Positions 57,497 to 64,000 of a DNA stretch of 64,000 bases are shown here, piece by piece. Positions within the stretch are counted from its first letter, which is position 1. Every line of letters begins with the position of its first letter. Origin of the DNA: Rufibacter ruber (lineage in GTDB: Bacteria; Bacteroidota; Bacteroidia; Cytophagales; Hymenobacteraceae); NCBI RefSeq assembly GCF_001647275.1, contig NZ_LRMM01000014.1, positions 1 to 64,000 on the forward strand, written 5' to 3'. The notes beneath the pieces were generated by a model. That model saw only the letters and a program-made list of their open reading frames with translations, was not told where the DNA came from and ran no database searches. Position numbers and translations under genes: made by a program.

Positions 57497-58207
57497 CTAA
57501 AATTTAATCCCGAAGTCAAGGGAGAAGACATCATTTTTCAGCTCCACTTTGTCATCCTTGAAAATACCGGCGTAGTGGTCGTCATCTACATCTGTAAGGC
57601 CGCGGTGGTAGGTGATACCGCCAAAGAGCTTGGTGCTGACCCCAATCTGCCGCTCTACCCCCACCCCAATCAGCACATCAATCTCAAACAGGTTGAAACG
57701 CTTGGTGAATTTGTCGCCTTCACTGTCTACTTTTTTGTCGTTTACTTTTGCGGCCAGCATGGTGTTCAAAGAACCGCCTGCCTGAAAATAGAGCTTGGTG
57801 TCTGTAGAAATCTCATTGGTGAAAAGTTTCAAGGCAATAGGGATTTCCAGGTACTGCAGGCTTAAATCATCTTCTCCTGACATTGTGATACTGGTAGCGC
57901 CATCCAGAGCCCCCGGGGCTATGGGTTGGGTATAGCTGTAGCGCACGGTACCGCCCTTGATGTTGTACATTAAACCGGAACTCACGGCATAGTTTGCGCC
58001 AAAGAAATAATCTGCCATGACGCCCACCCCAAAGCCACCGCCCACGCCGTCGCCTTCAAAATTGTATTTGTCTTGCGCCAAGGTGCGGTTTGAAGTGATA
58101 GAAGGGGCAAACTTCACCCCAATTTCTACCTGCGCTTCTGCGTGGCGGGAGCCCAGGAATAAAATTGCCACCAGACAAAATAGGATACTGTAGCGGATCG
58201 TCTTCAT
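57497..58207 (-). CDS. PorT-family outer-membrane beta-barrel protein
   Basis: 236 aa. Signal peptide residues 1-25 (SILFCLVAILFLGSRHAEA). About eight amphipathic strands with short turns (VEIGVKFAPSITSNRT, GFGVGVMADYFFGANYAVSSGLMYNIKGG, LSLQYLEIPIALKLF, IDVLIGVGVERQIG, KLFGGITYHRGLTDVD), ending in the aromatic DFGIKF. PorT-type beta-barrels occur with type IX secretion and in many other contexts; no specific partner here. Divergent from gldB. Confidence 0.85.
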   Translation of the reverse strand: MKTIRYSILFCLVAILFLGSRHAEAQVEIGVKFAPSITSNRTLAQDKYNFEGDGVGGGFGVGVMADYFFGANYAVSSGLMYNIKGGTVRYSYTQPIAPGALDGATSITMSGEDDLSLQYLEIPIALKLFTNEISTDTKLYFQAGGSLNTMLAAKVNDKKVDSEGDKFTKRFNLFEIDVLIGVGVERQIGVSTKLFGGITYHRGLTDVDDDHYAGIFKDDKVELKNDVFSLDFGIKF

Positions 58208-58264
58208 AAGTAAGTGGTATTGCCGAATGTTGAGTAAATTTGCTTAAAGATAAACGAAGAATTC

Positions 58265-59263
58265 ATGCAGAAATATCTATACCTGCTTTTTACTCTGTTG
58301 CTGTTTGCCGGTTGTCAGCAGCAACAGACGTGCCAGATGGCAGAGGAAGTAGAGAATATACCGGTTAACTTAGAGGTTGAGCGGTTGGAGAAGGAGTTTT
58401 TCCAAATAAAAGCGCTGCCCCAGATGCAGGAGTTCCTGAGCCGGCACCCGCTGTTCGCAGACAGATTCCTGCAGCAGAAAGGTTACCCTAACCAGGAGAT
58501 TCTGGCGCAAAGCCTCCTGAAGCTGGCCACAGACACCAGTATTCACAAACTGGTGCGGGAGTCAGACAACACGTTTGGGGAGTTGAAAGACGTGAAGCAG
58601 GAGCTGGAGAACGCGTTCAAGCACGTGAAATATTATTACCCTAAGTTTCAGGTGCCACAGGTGCAGACGTTTATCACCGGCCTGAGCCGGGACCTGTACG
58701 TGGGCGACAGCCTGATGGTGCTGGGGCTGGATTTCTTCATTGGCAAGAAGGCCCCTTACCGGCCGCAGGCGCCGCAGTACATTCTGGAGCGCTATGAGAA
58801 ACCGTACCTGGTGCCCACCGCCATGTTGCTGGTCTCCAACAAATTCAACAAGACAGACTTTCTGAGCGGCGCCATGCTGGATGAGATGATTGATTTTGGC
58901 AAGTCGTACTATTTTGTGGAGCAGATGATGCCCTGCACCCCAGATTCACTCATCATTGGCTTCACAGGCCAGGAGCTGGCAGATGTGCAGTACAACGAAG
59001 GCAAGATCTGGGCGCATTTTGTGGAGAAGAGCCTGCTGTATGAGACCGGGCAGTTTGTGATCAGGAAGTATATTGGCGAGCGCCCCAACGTGCCCGAGAT
59101 CAGTGCCCGCTGCCCCGGCCGCATTGGCACCTGGGTAGGCTGGCAAATTGTGCGCCAATACATGGAAAGCAACCCCAATGTGACCCTGCAGCAGCTTATG
59201 GAAGAGAAAAATGCCCGTAAGATCTTAGAAGCCTCTAAATACAAGCCGCAGAAAAAATCTTAA
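58265..59263 (+). CDS. gldB: Gliding motility lipoprotein GldB
   Basis: 332 aa. Lipobox FAGC at residue about 17. The body contains VNLEVERLEKEFFQIKAL, LYVGDSLMVLGLDFFIGKKAPYRP, and the zincin-like C-terminal region VQYNEGKIWAHFVEKSLLYETGQFVIRKYIGERP (GldB/DUF2268-type fold; catalytic His-Glu motif not clearly retained). Required for gliding in Flavobacterium johnsoniae. Confidence 0.93.
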   Translation: MQKYLYLLFTLLLFAGCQQQQTCQMAEEVENIPVNLEVERLEKEFFQIKALPQMQEFLSRHPLFADRFLQQKGYPNQEILAQSLLKLATDTSIHKLVRESDNTFGELKDVKQELENAFKHVKYYYPKFQVPQVQTFITGLSRDLYVGDSLMVLGLDFFIGKKAPYRPQAPQYILERYEKPYLVPTAMLLVSNKFNKTDFLSGAMLDEMIDFGKSYYFVEQMMPCTPDSLIIGFTGQELADVQYNEGKIWAHFVEKSLLYETGQFVIRKYIGERPNVPEISARCPGRIGTWVGWQIVRQYMESNPNVTLQQLMEEKNARKILEASKYKPQKKS

Positions 59264-59326
59264 TGTAGGGTAGCACGTAGCAAGATGGGGAGGGTATATT
59301 TTGGGCAGTCGCATGCTATGTGATTT

Positions 59327-59352
59327 TAATTTTTCGGCCTTTGGCCGAAGAT
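59327..59352. repeat. TTTTTCGGCCTTTGGCCGAA hairpin after gldB
   Basis: TTCGGCC / GGCCGAA with a 3-base loop; no U-tail follows on the plus strand, so terminator function for gldB is uncertain. Confidence 0.45.
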
Positions 59353-59430
59353 GGTCCAGTACTTTATCCTTTAAAGATTCTAAAGCGGGTGAACGGAAAT
59401 TTGTAAGTGGGCATAATCAACTAAACCTTC

Positions 59431-59527
59431 TGCCATTCTGGAAGAATCTTAGGGAACCGTGAGCGAGCTATGAAAGCGCTCAGGAGAAGCAATTGCCGTT
59501 CGCAACCGAGATCCTTTCAGGGTGCCA
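59431..59527. repeat. Solo TGTCATYCTG-family inverted-repeat element
   Basis: Left unit 59431-59457 (TGCCATTCTGGAAGAATCTT, AGGGAAC) and right unit 59498-59527 (GTTCGCAACC ... CAGGGTGCCA) are inverted; matched C/G changes give TGCCA / TGGCA-type ends instead of TGTCA. No gene inside. Confidence 0.8.
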
Positions 59528-59580
59528 GAGAGTGGGTCATTACTTCTGTCTCCTCACTTAGTTTTGAATTACTTTCACTT

Positions 59581-59618
59581 TCTGTTTTCGCTGTTTTTGT
59601 AAAAACAGGCCGAAAACG
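59581..59618. repeat. Dispersed palindrome, copy 32
   Basis: Ends 22 bp before the glycosyltransferase ATG; left core shortened to CGCTG. Confidence 0.75.
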
Positions 59619-59639
59619 TAATCCATTGTTCCGGCTCCC

Positions 59640-60839
59640 ATGCACATTGCGCTGTTTCATCAGTATCACCACAACCCTGACTGCCCCGCTACCTGCCGGC
59701 ATTACAGTTTCATGGCTGAACTGGTAAAGCGCCACCGTGTCACGCTCGTCACCTCTAACGCCTGGGAAAGCAAAAGACTCACGCACCAATATGCATGGGT
59801 GCCTCCTGGTGTGGAGTTGGTTTCCATTCAGGTGCCATATCATAATAAAATGGGAGTGTGGCAACGGGTGAAAGCTTTCAGTGATTTTGCCTTGCAGGCA
59901 ATAAGAAAAGGCAAAGAAATAGAAAAGCCAGATGTTGTGTGGGGCGTGTCTACCCCACTGACCACTGCCTGGGCGGCAGCTAGAGTTGCCAAATACCATC
60001 AAGTGCCGTGGGTGTTTGAGGTGCAGGACTTGTGGCCGTCTTTCCCCATCCAGATGGGGGCTGTACCCTGGAAGCCGGTGCAGCGGGAGCTTTACCGATT
60101 GGAGAAGAACCTCTACCAATCAGCTTCGCACATCATTCCGCTGTCAACAGACATGGGGCGATACATTCAGGAGCTGGGTATTGCACCAGATAAAATCACT
60201 ACGCTGGTCAATGGGACTGACATACCAGCCACGCCTGTCTCCGCTTCTGCAAAGCAAGCCTTGCTACATAAGTTGGGGCTTGAGGGGAAGCAAGTAGTGC
60301 TCTATGCTGGTACGTATGGCCGGGCCAATGACATTCCTATGCTGGTGGAGGCTGCTAAATTACTGCAAGACCAGCCTAAGTTGTACTTCGTTTTTACCGG
60401 TCAAGGGTATGATGAGCCATTGCTGCAAAATGCAGCCGCCGTGCAAACCAATATCCTGCTGCTCCCCCCTATGCCTCGGCACCAGGTTTTCACCTTGTTC
60501 TCGCTGGCAGCAGTGTCAATTGTTTCGTTTATTGATTTGCCAGTGCTCAAAGCAAACTCCCCCGGTAAACTTTTTGACAGCCTGGCGGTGGGTACGCCCG
60601 TTGTTGTGACCAATGCTGGCTGGACAAAGCAGCTGGTAGAAGCGAGCCAGTGTGGTTGGTACGTTCCGGCCGGAGACGCTGAGGCCTTGGCCGCTACTCT
60701 GGTGCAGCAGTTGGGGAATGAGCAGGAGCTGGCAGTAATGCGGAAAAATGCCGCTAGCGTGGCTCAACAGCAGTTTGAGAGGTTACAGATGGTGCCAGTA
60801 TTGGAGCAGATATTTGAGGGAGTGGTGGGGAGAAAGTAA
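59640..60839 (+). CDS. Glycosyltransferase family 4 (WbuB/WcaI-like)
   Basis: 399 aa, GT-B fold. N-terminal acceptor domain starts HIALFHQYHHNPDCPATCRHYSFMAELVKR, with FEVQDLWPSFP around residue 125; the C-terminal nucleotide-sugar domain has VLYAGTYGRANDIPMLVEAAKLL, the acceptor GKLFDSLAVGTPVVVTNAG, and GWYVPAGDAEALA. Similar enzymes transfer sugars to lipid carriers or polysaccharide repeats. No polysaccharide cluster surrounds it, so its product is unknown. Confidence 0.88.
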   Translation: MHIALFHQYHHNPDCPATCRHYSFMAELVKRHRVTLVTSNAWESKRLTHQYAWVPPGVELVSIQVPYHNKMGVWQRVKAFSDFALQAIRKGKEIEKPDVVWGVSTPLTTAWAAARVAKYHQVPWVFEVQDLWPSFPIQMGAVPWKPVQRELYRLEKNLYQSASHIIPLSTDMGRYIQELGIAPDKITTLVNGTDIPATPVSASAKQALLHKLGLEGKQVVLYAGTYGRANDIPMLVEAAKLLQDQPKLYFVFTGQGYDEPLLQNAAAVQTNILLLPPMPRHQVFTLFSLAAVSIVSFIDLPVLKANSPGKLFDSLAVGTPVVVTNAGWTKQLVEASQCGWYVPAGDAEALAATLVQQLGNEQELAVMRKNAASVAQQQFERLQMVPVLEQIFEGVVGRK

Positions 60840-61102: not shown

Positions 61103-61399
61103 TCACCCTATAAATTTATCCTTCTCGCCTTTTTGTGGTACTAGCCTGAAGTTTTCAAACGTTTTACCTTGTAGATGCTGCTGCCACTTGGCCAACAGCG
61201 GTTTCTCTAAATTTATCTCACGGTATTCGTCGGGGCTCATGATCGGGATTCCTTTTACAATAGGATAAAGGCGGCTGCACTCACTACACGTAAAAAAGCC
61301 TTCCAGTATGTTCCCGCTAGGGTCTTGGGTAATGGTGGTCAGCTCAATGTCTGCTTTATCAAAGGGGCAGCACAATTTCTTTATAGTTTCAAGTCTCAT
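61103..61399 (-). CDS. Trm112-like zinc-ribbon protein
   Basis: 98 aa from ATG 61399 (a GTG one codon upstream is the alternative). Core LETIKKLCCPFDKADIEL ... FFTCSECSRLYPIVKGIPIM matches the Trm112/YcaR pattern; the second CxxC (Cys-Ser-Glu-Cys) is intact, but the first has CCPFD, lacking the second Cys. Trm112 activates SAM-dependent methyltransferases by binding them. It ends the operon that starts with a methyltransferase, so a pairing is a reasonable inference. Confidence 0.8.
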   Translation of the reverse strand: MRLETIKKLCCPFDKADIELTTITQDPSGNILEGFFTCSECSRLYPIVKGIPIMSPDEYREINLEKPLLAKWQQHLQGKTFENFRLVPQKGEKDKFIG

Positions 61400-61401
61400 C
61401 A

Positions 61402-62037
61402 CTAGATTGGTTTCAGTTGTTTCAGATATTTTGTAATAGCCACGCCTGGCTTTTCTGCACTCATTATGCCTGATACCACCGCTACTCCATCAAAAGGTAG
61501 TTCCTGTAGTTCAGGCATGTTGTCAGGTTTTATTCCGCCGGCTAAAAAGATGGGCATAGCGGTTATTCTTTTAGCTTCTTTGATGGTCTCAAAATCTACC
61601 AATTCACAACTGGTGCTGGTAGAGGAAGGAAAAATGGAGCAAAAGGAAATATAATCCAGCCTTTGGTCATTTGCCCACCGCACCAAAGCCAAATCATTGT
61701 TGCAGGTAAGACCTGTTATAAAGTCTCTGTTAAGAGAGATTTTTATCTGCTCTAAATCTTTAGGCGGAGCGTCAAAGTGAACGCCATCTAAGGCGGTGGT
61801 TTGCAGCCACTCCCACTGGTTGTTTATAAGTACCGGAACATTCTTCTCGTGGCAAAGCACAGAGATTTTCTGAATCAACGGCAGATGGTCTTTATGCGGC
61901 AAAAAATTGTCCCAGAGCTGTACCGCAGCAATCTTTTCCTGAAGAACTAGTTGTAGCTTTTGAAGTAAAATATCTTCCTCCAAAGATGGGTCTATGACCA
62001 AATAAACTCCTGACTCTACTTTTCGCTTCTTTTCCAT
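61402..62037 (-). CDS. ThiE-like thiamine-phosphate-synthase fold protein with altered active site
   Basis: 211 aa, TIM barrel of the ThiE/TenI family. Motif positions are recognisable but changed: AAVQLWDN where VQLRxK is usual, VLINNQWEW for LINDRxDLA, DGVHFDAPPK for DGVHLGQED, IFPSSTSTSCEL for P.F.T.TK, and LAGGI retained. The pyrophosphate- and Mg-binding Arg, Lys and Asp appear lost, so it probably does not catalyse normal thiamine phosphate synthesis. Its start overlaps the upstream stop as TAATG. Regulated by the TPP riboswitch upstream. Confidence 0.85.
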   Translation of the reverse strand: MEKKRKVESGVYLVIDPSLEEDILLQKLQLVLQEKIAAVQLWDNFLPHKDHLPLIQKISVLCHEKNVPVLINNQWEWLQTTALDGVHFDAPPKDLEQIKISLNRDFITGLTCNNDLALVRWANDQRLDYISFCSIFPSSTSTSCELVDFETIKEAKRITAMPIFLAGGIKPDNMPELQELPFDGVAVVSGIMSAEKPGVAITKYLKQLKPI

Positions 62038-63092
62038 TATTTCCATCCCTCCCGAAAGGCGTTGAAGAAAGCGGCCCAATACGGGTCTTCTGCCAGATAC
62101 ACCAAGTCAGATGCTTCTCCGTTTGCTATCAACTTTATGCCACTTTCTCTTTCTCTTATTTCTCCAACAGCGCAACAGGCTATGCCTTCAGCGGCAAGGT
62201 GTGCTATGATACCATGTGCGGCCTCTTTTTTACAGGTAATGATCATAGCGCCAGCACCCACGCAGTAGCGCGGGTCTATAGAGAAGAGAGAGCAGACGTC
62301 CTGCTGAATGTTTCCAATGGGAATCTGGTCGTTAAAAATCACGGCCCCGTTGCCAGAGGCGCTGGCCAGTTCATATATGGCCCCCAGCACACCACCTTCG
62401 GTTACATCATGCATGGCAGTTACCTGGTTACGCGCAGTTGGGGCGCCAACGGCGGTCAAAGCATCTTTGAGCGATGATGTTTGGTAAAACATGTCGCAGG
62501 CCTTCTGGTAAGTTTCCTGGCCCAGTTTATTCTTCACCGTTTCCGGAAAACTCATAGCCAAGATGGAGGTAGAGGAAAGGGCGCATTGTTTGGTCACCAG
62601 AATAGTGTCTCCTGGCCGGGCATTCTGCGAAGTAAGGATTTGCGCCTGAGGGGCAATGGTGGTAAACGTACCGCCCCCAGCAATGGTAGAGTTCTGCCCT
62701 TCAATAAAGCCGGTATGCCCTCCGGTAATAGCTACTCCCACATTAGCGCAGTATTGGTGAATGTACTGCCAATAAGTTTTGAAATCCTCTTTGGAAAACG
62801 TAGCCGGCAGGTTGAGCACAAATTGCCCGTACATAGGCGCAAAACCCGTGGTAGCCATGTCATTGGCCATTAGGTGTACCGAAAGCCAGGCAGATTCTTC
62901 CAGACCCAATGATGGAATAAGCGATAATGGGTCACTGGTGGTGGCCATGGCCATACCACCGGGCAAACGTACCACTGAGACATCTACCCCAAATCCTGGG
63001 CCCACCAGCACTTCCTTTCTTGGGTACCCGCAATTCTCCCGGATGATGTTGGTGAATAGAGGGTGGTCTATCTTTCCAAGTTTATCTTCCAT
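62037..63092 (-). CDS. AIR synthase (PurM)-superfamily protein, ThiL/HypE/SelD-like
   Basis: 351 aa. PurM-like N-terminal half: GPGFGVDVSVVRLPGGMAMATTSDPLS then AWLSVHLMANDMATTGFAPMYGQFVLNLP and GHTGFIEGQN; C-terminal half: ARPGDTILVTKQ, MHDVTEGGVLGAIYELA (HypE-type). Members use ATP to activate or phosphorylate small molecules (ThiL, PurM, SelD, HypE). The motif pattern does not let me name the substrate; the context of a TPP riboswitch suggests a thiamine-related metabolite. Separated by 1 bp from the methyltransferase gene. Confidence 0.83.
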   Translation of the reverse strand: MEDKLGKIDHPLFTNIIRENCGYPRKEVLVGPGFGVDVSVVRLPGGMAMATTSDPLSLIPSLGLEESAWLSVHLMANDMATTGFAPMYGQFVLNLPATFSKEDFKTYWQYIHQYCANVGVAITGGHTGFIEGQNSTIAGGGTFTTIAPQAQILTSQNARPGDTILVTKQCALSSTSILAMSFPETVKNKLGQETYQKACDMFYQTSSLKDALTAVGAPTARNQVTAMHDVTEGGVLGAIYELASASGNGAVIFNDQIPIGNIQQDVCSLFSIDPRYCVGAGAMIITCKKEAAHGIIAHLAAEGIACCAVGEIRERESGIKLIANGEASDLVYLAEDPYWAAFFNAFREGWK

Positions 63093-63093
63093 T

Positions 63094-63816
63094 CTAGTCT
63101 ACATCGTTTAGTTTGATGTATAACCCGAAGAAATCGCCGTAGGGCAGCCCCCATTGCTGTACCGGAAACCATTTAGGAAGGCCTGTGCAAGTCCATTCAA
63201 TGGTATATTCTCTGCCGGCCAGCGCCTGGTGAATTATCTCAGTTAGTTTGGCTGGTGTATAAAAGGTGGCGGTGACGTAAAACGGGTTTTTCCCGAACAT
63301 CTGCTGCACCCGCCTTCTCAGAACTTTGGGCGAGTTCCGGTTCATCATGCCCATGGCAATACCGTATTTGGCTACCCTGGCCGCTTCTCTAATAACTTTA
63401 ACGGGGTCTTTGTAATACTCAAACGTAGTGATGAAAGCCAGAGAGTCAAAGGTATGGTCTTTGAAGGGCATGTGGTGTGAGTCGGCCATGACCAAATCTC
63501 CTTGGAAGAGGTGCACCGCCTGTGACAGCATGAGGGGGGAAATGTCGCCGCCGGTGGCTTCTATGCCTATCTGGTGCCACCATCTGGTAAAGCGGGTGGT
63601 GCCGCAGCCAAACTCAAGCAGGGTCTTGATACGTGTGTCTTTGGAAACCAGCTGTTCCATGACCTTCTTTTGCCAGACCTCGGCTCTTTTGTAGCGGCCT
63701 TCATACCATTGCTCGTAGGTGTCAGTGTGTTCGCGGTTGAAGAACCATTCAGGTCTGTTTTGCCAGTTTTGCTGGCTCTGGGGAATTAATTCAGAGGATT
63801 TTTTCTGTAGCTCCAT
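63094..63816 (-). CDS. Class I SAM-dependent methyltransferase
   Basis: 240 aa. SAM-binding motif LLEFGCGTTRFTRWW (residues 66-80), acidic loop TGGDISPLMLS, MADSHHMPFKDHTFDSLAFITTFEY (motif IV region) with VIREAARVAKYGIAMGMM. N-terminal WFFNREHTDTYEQWYEGRYKRAEVWQKKVM is characteristic of a small-molecule or protein methyltransferase I cannot name. First gene after the TPP riboswitch; operon also encodes a Trm112-like activator candidate. Confidence 0.87.
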   Translation of the reverse strand: MELQKKSSELIPQSQQNWQNRPEWFFNREHTDTYEQWYEGRYKRAEVWQKKVMEQLVSKDTRIKTLLEFGCGTTRFTRWWHQIGIEATGGDISPLMLSQAVHLFQGDLVMADSHHMPFKDHTFDSLAFITTFEYYKDPVKVIREAARVAKYGIAMGMMNRNSPKVLRRRVQQMFGKNPFYVTATFYTPAKLTEIIHQALAGREYTIEWTCTGLPKWFPVQQWGLPYGDFFGLYIKLNDVD

Positions 63817-63830
63817 GTTGCAGTTTTGTT

Positions 63831-63875
63831 AAAACAAAAAACTCCATTCAATGGGTATGCCCAGAAAGAATGGAG
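63831..63875 (-). terminator. Leader terminator downstream of the TPP riboswitch
   Basis: On the minus strand ACTCCATTC / GAATGGAGT closes a hairpin with inner TGGG/CCCA pairing and is followed by TTTTTTGTTTT, a classical intrinsic terminator in the untranslated leader 14 nt before the methyltransferase start. A second ACTCCATT copy (plus 63881-63888) lies immediately upstream and can compete for pairing. Confidence 0.82.
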
Positions 63876-63899
63876 TACAAAATGGAGTATTTAATACAG

Positions 63900-63975
63900 C
63901 ATCCCTACGTTGGCATTATCCAAATCAGGTGGCGGGTATGATCTCAGCCTAACATTTCTAGTCAGGCACCCCGTG
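63900..63975 (-). ncRNA. TPP riboswitch (THI element)
   Basis: Minus-strand sequence carries the conserved core: GGGGTGCC at the 5' side, CTGAGATCATACCCG in the pyrimidine-sensor arm, and ACCTGATTTGGATAATGCCA followed by ACGTAGGGATG on the 3' side. These match the invariant elements of the thiamine-pyrophosphate aptamer. It precedes an in-leader terminator and the methyltransferase-PurM-ThiE-Trm112 operon, so expression should fall when TPP is abundant. Confidence 0.96.
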
Positions 63976-64000
63976 CGTTTACTTTACAAACTTACTTAAA

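Follow-up and report, generated by a model that had tools for sequence, protein, structure and literature searches.

The locus and its leader

The window is a stretch of 64,000 nucleotides from Rufibacter ruber (GCF_001647275.1, contig NZ_LRMM01000014.1, positions 1 to 64,000), and the cassette lies on its minus strand. Four genes encoding a methyltransferase, an ATPase, a ThiE-like protein and a Trm112-like protein follow a TPP riboswitch aptamer and a leader terminator (Table 1). The aptamer exceeds the RF00059 cut-off of 54.3 bits (E 4.1e-10) and is the only match over cut-off in an Rfam scan of the window. By analogy with the known biology of RF00059, the aptamer would turn expression on when TPP is scarce. 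The leader folds with an MFE z-score of -2.91, and 1 of 200 shuffles was equally stable, in a fold that takes in the aptamer too. The hairpin is not among the matches of a generic terminator scan with a loop limit of 8, the count of which (7 vs 4.2 in shuffles, sd 2.1) shows little excess. In a crude scan with no shuffle control, a hairpin followed by a T run (<= -6 kcal/mol) was found in 48 of 70 cassette leaders and was absent from 22.

Table 1. Features of the cassette, in the coordinates of the window
Feature	Position	Strand	Evidence
TPP riboswitch aptamer (RF00059)	63885..63983	-	full-length covariance-model match, 63.5 bits
Leader terminator	63836..63876	-	leader fold: 9-pair stem ACTCCATTC/GAATGGAGT, then T run
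Class I SAM methyltransferase, 240 aa	63094..63816	-	Methyltransf_11
PurM/HypE/ThiL/SelD-superfamily ATPase, 351 aa	62037..63092	-	AIRS + AIRS_C
ThiE-like TIM barrel, 211 aa	61402..62037	-	TMP-TENI; ORF open to TTG at 62079
Trm112-like small protein, 98-99 aa	61103..61402	-	Trm112p

The genes are tightly packed. The methyltransferase and ATPase genes are separated by 1 bp, and the ThiE-like gene most likely starts at the ATG at 62037 (ORF 61402-62079), which has one A in common with the TAA of the ATPase gene. The Trm112-like gene starts either at a GTG overlapping the ThiE-like TAG or at an ATG two bases downstream of it. An earlier note on this DNA had described an intact TPP aptamer with a leader terminator before four packed genes joined by a 1-bp gap and start/stop overlaps; the covariance-model score, the stem with its T run and the gene coordinates bear out both parts of that description.

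Conservation and apparent mobility of the cassette

Seventy loci were recruited through the ATPase, 68 of them distinct (L062 is the window, and L063 and L064 repeat L014 and L015); these three are omitted from pairwise identities (67 loci) and kept in counts of 70. Fifty-nine loci come from a contig scan with exact peptides of the window protein, which reaches close relatives only, and all bear titles of Bacteroidota. In all 70 loci a TPP aptamer precedes the methyltransferase gene, with only a leader of 54-172 nt and no other gene between them. The four genes occur in the same order in 69 loci, the exception being L053, where the contig ends after the second gene, and likewise in 12 of 12 further genomes of the phylum sample. 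Among 23 sampled cassette genomes, which overlap with the 70 loci, the aptamer was found at the cassette in every one, over cut-off in 22 and at 47.8 bits in the remaining one (G168). The same gene order behind the aptamer in 69/70 loci rules out an accidental position of the genes downstream of it. The arrangement that the earlier note had named as contrary evidence, a riboswitch on an ordinary thi operon with these genes only accidentally downstream or without co-conservation, is absent from the 70 loci.

The surroundings of the cassette are far less constant. Among the 15 largest clusters of neighbours listed, from up to three genes per side of 59 loci, those of at least five loci are single-genus, except one joining Ferruginibacter to Arenibacter, and clusters of two to four loci mostly span genera at varying positions, with the exception of L005 and L017, which have the same gene immediately upstream. 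A gene tree of 58 loci (L053 was left out as incomplete) groups different classes together with support of 0.985 and 0.96. Because neighbours are mostly unshared beyond the genus and the tree mixes classes, these comparisons suggest that the cassette is a stand-alone unit moving horizontally between Bacteroidota. The methyltransferase has no match in plasmids, nor in viral contigs by exact peptide patterns, searches that exclude close relatives only. In PHROGs, the ATPase hits a single family, its function unknown, and the methyltransferase hits two.

The four encoded proteins

The methyltransferase matches Methyltransf_11 (63.4 bits, Pfam cut-off 21.2), and its motif I, FGCGT, is invariant in 33 sequences, which assigns it to the class I SAM enzymes. 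It is the most conserved gene of the cassette, with 105 positions invariant in 70 sequences and a mean pairwise identity of 80.1% (67 loci); its AF2 model is poor (pLDDT 61.4). The Trm112-like protein scores over the Pfam cut-off for Trm112p (26.3 vs 22 bits) and under the cut-off of the archaeal Trm112 equivalog NF038101 (54.3 vs 77), and its residues C10, C11, D14, C38 and C41 (numbered from the ATG) are invariant in 69/69 sequences. The two genes co-occur in 69/70 loci and in 12/12 further genomes, and this co-conservation in one operon is the basis for a putative pairing of their products. Known Trm112 partners elsewhere have RNA or protein substrates. The cassette resembles Trm112 systems in that a class I methyltransferase is conserved together with a small protein containing four cysteines, but the first cysteine motif of this protein is CCPFD and, unlike Trm112-activated methyltransferases, the enzyme was assigned to no rRNA or tRNA methyltransferase family.

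The ATPase exceeds the Pfam cut-offs for both AIRS_C (68.1 bits) and AIRS (42.1 bits), and its AF2 model has a pLDDT of 90.7. Aligned with VIA-align, the model gives Z-scores of 34.8 for HypE (3vys_C, rmsd 2.5 over 321 residues), 29.1 for ThiL, 28.9 for SelD and about 24 for PurM, which places it in the superfamily with a predicted fold nearest HypE. It shares with these proteins the fold and the superfamily-type acidic motifs GVDV, SDP, NDMA and DVTEGG, but it lacks the GGEDYEL motif and the C-terminal cysteine and falls under all NCBIfam cut-offs, including those for ThiL (69.3 vs 184.15) and HypE (75.3 vs 251.6). HypE carries a C-terminal cysteine motif, whereas the ATPase consensus ends in GWK. 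ThiL itself was considered and ruled out by the score, by the separate ThiL of the same genome (332.7), which has GGDT where the ATPase has GGHT, and by the fold ranking.

The ThiE-like protein is a TMP-TENI member (111.2 bits, over the Pfam cut-off) that scores under the curated ThiE cut-off of NCBIfam (TIGR00693, 101.1 vs 145.1). In B. subtilis ThiE, R59, K61, D93, D112 and K159 are the ligands of the HMP-PP pyrophosphate and Mg. At these positions, 18 canonical ThiE proteins have R18, K18, D18, D17 and K18, whereas the 69 cassette proteins have W67, N51/H15, N61, P64 and a gap in all 69. Twelve more distant ThiE-like proteins have W12 at the first position, H6 N5 R1 at the second, D5 N4 E3 at the third and P11 at the fourth, so the first aspartate (D93) is retained in 5/12. 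None of the five ligands is present in the window's protein, and an alignment to the B. subtilis chain concurs on the replacement of D93, D112 and K159. With ThiE and TenI the cassette protein shares the TMP-TENI barrel, the pyrimidine-side equivalents of Q57, N92 and H107, a glycine loop and a late serine; residues for both thiamine halves are kept, and few for pyrophosphate. It differs from them in having three cysteines peculiar to it, two of them invariant and one nearly so. The TenI thiazole tautomerase uses histidine 122 as its catalytic residue; 1yad is a weak sequence match to the ThiE-like protein.

Standard thiamine genes and candidate functions

ThiC was found in 28 of 100 family genomes and in none of the 11 that bear the cassette, and in 138 of 395 phylum genomes and none of 13 cassette-bearing ones (hypergeometric P 0.021 and 0.0034, relatedness ignored); it was found in none of the 23 sampled cassette genomes. 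Full-length ThiG is likewise present in 28/100 family genomes and 0/11 with the cassette, a count that leaves out weak partial matches (E 9e-4 to 3e-7), which are widespread, also among cassette genomes, and some of which exceed the Pfam cut-off. ThiD and TMP-TENI were compared in 51 hand-picked genomes: the 23 cassette genomes, 14 of the 28 ThiC family genomes and 14 with neither. Strong ThiD matches occur in 14/14 ThiC genomes vs 1/23 cassette genomes (G347), leaving aside weak partial Phos_pyr_kin matches (E no better than 1.7e-18), of which some pass the cut-off. The cassette copy is the sole full-length TMP-TENI protein in 23/23 cassette genomes, leaving aside weak partial second matches in nine f24 genomes. 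ThiL is over cut-off in 11/11 cassette genomes tested. Thiamine pyrophosphokinase (PF04263) was found in none of 100 family genomes, and no thiamine kinase was evident by eye beside ThiL or the TonB gene described below. A canonical thi operon, with ThiC, ThiG and ThiD in or accompanying the cassette, is thus not what these genomes carry (ThiC 0/23, ThiD 1/23, ThiG 0/11).

The earlier note had proposed an uncharacterised thiamine-related pathway, and had pointed to co-occurrence of the four genes with missing thi steps as a check on it; this co-occurrence was found (69/70 loci, 12/12 further genomes, ThiC in 0/23). The proposal is well supported, because the cassette is co-conserved, preceded by a TPP riboswitch and confined to ThiC-less sampled genomes. 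Salvage of either moiety that it gave as an example, pyrimidine or thiazole, is unlikely to proceed by known steps, because clear ThiD is present in 1/23 only and the ThiE-like protein is without most pyrophosphate-binding residues.

In B. thetaiotaomicron, TPP-riboswitch thi operons include thiSEGCHF-tenI, OMthi and pnuT-tnr3 (PMC5613172). These Bacteroidetes operons and the cassette have in common the TPP aptamer, the phylum and a TonB receptor likewise controlled by a TPP riboswitch, but the cassette lacks ThiS, canonical ThiE, ThiG, ThiC, ThiH and ThiF. Searches of a library of open-licence PMC papers yielded no description of the four-gene cassette.

Since the cassette is found only in sampled genomes without a key standard gene, it probably encodes an undescribed route to vitamin B1. 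The favoured reading, with about an even chance of being right, is that the riboswitch and the four genes form a self-contained thiamine-supply unit, which under TPP control reaches thiamine monophosphate with no need of ThiC, ThiD or a normal ThiE and passes it to ThiL. At low TPP, the leader would permit expression of the four genes, and their products would convert a precursor, either taken up or of cellular origin, into thiamine monophosphate or a compound one step away; housekeeping ThiL would then make TPP. The methyltransferase, aided by the Trm112-like protein, may use SAM to modify this precursor. Dehydration or ring closure could follow from activation of an amide oxygen, a formyl oxygen or a phosphate by the HypE/PurM-like ATPase. 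The ThiE-like barrel would bind pyrimidine and thiazole phosphate, or else an intermediate resembling TMP in which the two are already joined, and might complete the product without a pyrophosphate leaving group, perhaps via its two invariant cysteines. A stronger and more tentative version, possible though doubtful in full, is a complete, horizontally transferable bypass, a route of four proteins to TMP. Here an ATP-dependent step of the PurM/HypE type would build or close the thiazolium ring directly on a pyrimidine that serves as carrier, the pyrophosphate-free ThiE paralogue would aromatise or finish it, and the Trm112-assisted methyltransferase would give a methyl group. Four enzymes look few for a full de novo route. 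ThiC was present in 21/21 thiamine prototrophs of a leaf-isolate study (PMC9666465), which counts against ThiC-free synthesis.

The other TPP riboswitches of these genomes fit salvage as well as synthesis. Exactly one further TPP riboswitch match is present in 18/23 cassette genomes; in the 19 inspected of the 29 other matches the next gene looks TonB-receptor-like at its start, and Pfam confirmed a TonB receptor in 10/10 genes tested. Repair or salvage is the leading alternative, if a rather unlikely one: the receptor would import damaged or modified thiamine (for example oxidised thiamine, the N-formyl thiol left by ring opening, or N-formyl aminomethyl pyrimidine), and the cassette would restore TMP or thiamine. 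With ATP, the PurM-like protein would close the ring again or put the amino group back, in line with superfamily chemistry, in which PurM carries out ring closure of a formyl amidine, and the ThiE-like barrel, with residues for both thiamine halves and few for pyrophosphate, would hold the two-part molecule. This account gives no obvious role to the methyltransferase, though no other gene of the cassette is nearly as constrained.

A methyltransferase so extremely conserved, and with a Trm112-like partner, could well act on a macromolecule, and riboswitches sometimes drive cofactor-independent isozymes, such as MetE under B12 control. Low TPP might thus induce synthesis of a compound replacing a TPP-dependent step, or modification of a macromolecule; this is improbable, as the intact pyrimidine-side residues of the ThiE paralogue point to thiamine chemistry and the absence from all sampled ThiC genomes to a supply role. 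It is very improbable that the genes are diverged ordinary ones, with a TMP synthase, a TMP kinase and two passengers, as family-level similarity to ThiE and the ThiL superfamily and the first aspartate of 5/12 more distant proteins might suggest. The equivalent of R59 is W in 67/69 and 12/12 proteins, no lysine stands at K159 in 69/69, and clear ThiD, needed for HMP-PP, occurs in 1/23 only; a separate ThiL is over cut-off in 11/11 genomes and the ATPase is nearer HypE (Z 34.8 vs 29.1), and the methyltransferase, which would be a passenger on this view, is conserved better than any other gene and occurs in all 70 loci, though these were found via the ATPase. Biosynthesis of a bacimethrin-like thiamine antimetabolite, to which a methyltransferase adjoining thiamine-like genes bears some resemblance, can be virtually dismissed, since the cassette has no thymidylate-synthase-like or export gene, its neighbours are mostly unconserved and TPP control suits supply better than attack.

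Absent standard genes are a common basis for scoring thiamine auxotrophy, namely thiC and thiG in PMC9666465 and a thiL-ECG gene pattern in PMC11346370. The cassette is present in the leaf isolate Chryseobacterium sp. Leaf394 (L029), which the main text of PMC9666465 does not mention. Rufibacter sediminis (L014) and Chryseobacterium defluvii (L028) also carry it, apparently with no ThiC in their genomes. If the route to thiamine monophosphate proposed here does supply thiamine, part of Bacteroidota has been misclassified as auxotrophs and models of vitamin cross-feeding would change; under the complete bypass, some ThiC-less Bacteroidota scored auxotrophic would not be so. A supply role would also offer new enzymology for testing: a ThiE barrel that dispenses with pyrophosphate chemistry, a HypE/PurM-like ATPase linked to TPP, and a methyltransferase of vitamin metabolism that Trm112 assists. 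The cassette is small and seemingly already mobile between classes, so one clone may suffice for testing.

The cassette as a conserved module

At the right-hand end of the window, the TPP aptamer is followed on its 3' side by a terminator hairpin and then by four tightly packed genes, joined by a 1-bp gap and start/stop overlaps. Their products are assigned by Pfam, in gene order, to a class I methyltransferase, an AIRS-type ATPase, a TMP-TENI barrel and Trm112p. All four proteins stay below the NCBIfam cut-offs: scores are 101 against ThiE (cut-off 145) for the ThiE-like protein, 75 against HypE (cut-off 252) and 69 against ThiL (cut-off 184) for the ATPase, and 54 against archaeal Trm112 (cut-off 77) for the Trm112-like protein.

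Coordinates of features in the window and in the contig L162 of genome G347
Feature	Contig	Position	Strand	Score
TPP aptamer, full-length	window	63885-63983	minus	63.5 bits
Genes beside the cassette and unrelated to it (outer-membrane barrel protein, GldB gliding lipoprotein, glycosyltransferase)	window	57497-60839
ThiD-like gene of G347	L162	7398-8252

The cassette is a conserved module. Loci were collected by scanning a single genome of each species for close relatives of the ATPase (59 loci, Bacteroidota by title) and by searching the 100 genomes sampled in the window's family, 11 of which, the window's own included, carry an ATPase ortholog more than 50% identical; the resulting 70 loci represent 68 distinct ones. 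All four genes occur in identical order in 69 of the 70, and a TPP aptamer lies 54–172 nt upstream of the methyltransferase start in every one (confirmed with Rfam in 19/19 loci tested). Twelve further genomes, found via the methyltransferase among 395 Bacteroidota genomes (the phylum sample), all hold the four genes in order, with wider gaps in some. A crude scan run without a shuffle control found a terminator-like hairpin in 48 of the 70 leaders and none of that stability in the other 22, including all eight Chryseobacterium loci, where control may therefore operate by another mechanism.

Thiamine genes and the altered ThiE-like barrel

ThiC is encoded by 28 of the 100 family-sample genomes and by none of the 11 cassette genomes among them; full-length or nearly full-length ThiG occurs in the same 28. 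In the phylum sample, the methyltransferase is found in 13 genomes and ThiC in 138, never together. The probability of zero overlap by chance is 0.021 (family) and 0.0034 (phylum) if the relatedness of the genomes is ignored. The earlier note had ascribed the operon to an uncharacterised thiamine-related pathway, and both the joint conservation of the four genes and the absence of ThiC from all 23 cassette genomes (family and phylum carriers combined) speak in its favor.

ThiD is the enzyme that produces HMP-PP, the pyrimidine substrate of ThiE. Among 51 hand-picked genomes, strong ThiD matches were found in all 14 with ThiC, in 1 of the 23 with the cassette (G347) and in none of the 14 with neither. 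The ThiE-like gene encodes the sole full-length TMP-TENI protein in 23/23 cassette genomes, and the 14 genomes with neither cassette nor ThiC have no such full-length protein. Lacking ThiC, any other full-length TMP-TENI protein and, in all but one case, a strong ThiD match, cassette genomes resemble thiamine auxotrophs plus one extra module. The ThiD-like gene of G347 adjoins, by eye, a glycine dehydrogenase-like gene, about 17 kb from the cassette and in no thi cluster. Three genomes of the window's genus (G032, G045 and G057) encode a canonical-scoring ThiE without ThiC; they are likely ordinary precursor salvage types, found in the genus alongside cassette carriers.

The ThiE-like proteins of 69 cassettes were compared with 18 canonical ThiE of family genomes (B. 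subtilis numbering) at positions that we take to bind pyrophosphate/Mg or the pyrimidine. Whereas canonical ThiE has equivalents of R59, K61, D93, D112 and K159 in 17–18 of 18 sequences each, the ThiE-like proteins replace R59 with W (67), K61 with N (51) or H (15), D93 with N (61) and D112 with P (64), and have a gap at K159 (69). The GG loop is kept together with the late serine, as are equivalents of Q57 (69/69), N92 (68/69) and H107 (69/69); in an alignment to the B. subtilis chain, D93, D112 and K159 have likewise been replaced, with N92 and H107 retained. Among the 12 further genomes, W at position 59 and the Q, N and H residues are each found in 12/12, D93 is kept in five (otherwise N in four and E in three), and one protein has arginine at position 61. 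Two cysteines are invariant (69/69 and 12/12), and a third is nearly so (63/69 and 11/12). The barrel thus appears to have lost most of its HMP-PP handling, which agrees with the near-universal lack of ThiD in cassette genomes, a separate observation.

Apparent spread between lineages

Genes neighboring the cassette are mostly common only to loci of one genus; a few small neighbor clusters (2–6 loci) cross genera, with one pair at the same position. In a tree built from the four concatenated protein sequences, Algoriphagus (Cytophagia) groups with Arenibacter (Flavobacteriia; support 0.985), Ferruginibacter (Chitinophagia) with Pedobacter chinensis (0.96), this pair with Cognataquiflexum (Cytophagia) and another Pedobacter (0.938), and Albibacterium with Lacibacter (0.888); four other groupings queried had support of 0.30–0.46. 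Because neighbors are mostly genus-bound and groupings mix classes (those of Pedobacter, Albibacterium and Lacibacter being assumed), we read the cassette as self-contained and apparently spread horizontally.

Two genomes each have two whole cassettes: Arenibacter sp. F26102 about 32 kb apart on one contig (L010 and L018) and A. arenosicollis on two contigs (L011 and L016). In the tree, each copy pairs with one from the other genome, so the duplication is older than their split or one copy has moved. Of the 13 carriers in the phylum sample, nine come from a single family (f24) that lies in a different GTDB class from the window. These nine cassettes have diverged further, and some have wider intergenic gaps; together with the aspartate retained in part of the further ThiE-like proteins, this suggests that some may hold an older state.

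Thiamine supply and the candidate role of the cassette

The aptamer precedes the methyltransferase gene in all 23 cassette genomes (22 exceed the Rfam cut-off), and 18 have exactly one additional TPP riboswitch match. The gene after an additional match has a TonB receptor-like start in all 19 cases inspected (of 29; one per genome), and Pfam found TonB-receptor domains in 10/10 such genes, nine of them truncated frames. In B. thetaiotaomicron, a TPP-riboswitched outer-membrane receptor of this kind takes part in thiamine uptake (PMC5613172). By analogy, uptake of thiamine or a relative is probably open to cassette genomes as well, yet they retain the cassette under like control.

The TPP riboswitch, the exclusion from ThiC genomes, the altered paralogue of a thiamine enzyme and the apparent horizontal spread point to a pathway that supplies TPP without using HMP-PP. 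ThiL exceeds its cut-off in 99 of the 100 family-sample genomes, including all 11 with the cassette, and a route to TMP that would feed ThiL has, in our estimate, an even chance of being the cassette's role. The main alternative, rather unlikely, is that the cassette repairs or salvages a thiamine relative after import, and the remaining weight falls on other rivals or an unlisted explanation. In a test of leaf isolates, ThiC was present in 21/21 thiamine prototrophs (PMC9666465), which argues against widespread ThiC-less prototrophy among those isolates; the strains tested may or may not have included a cassette carrier. TPK (PF04263) was found in 0/100 family-sample genomes (control genomes positive, 7/14), and many of these also lack ThiC and ThiE, though nearly all have ThiL; TMP could be obtained from imported thiamine there by an unknown thiamine kinase, or TMP itself could be taken up.

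Members of the HypE/ThiL/SelD/PurM superfamily use ATP to activate an oxygen or selenide. The predicted structure of the ATPase (pLDDT 90.7, high confidence) adopts this fold, with HypE nearest (Z 34.8), followed by ThiL (29.1), SelD (28.9) and PurM (about 24). The methyltransferase, judged by its alignment, is the most constrained part of the cassette: mean pairwise identity is 80%, against 62, 49 and 58% for the other three proteins, and 105 of 240 positions are invariant. Any mechanism must explain this constraint, and none proposed explains it well. The Trm112-like protein keeps C10, C11, D14, C38 and C41 in 69/69 sequences. The ATPase also matches PHROG phrog_36592 (function unassigned; 72.5 bits), suggesting that some phages carry a member of its superfamily.
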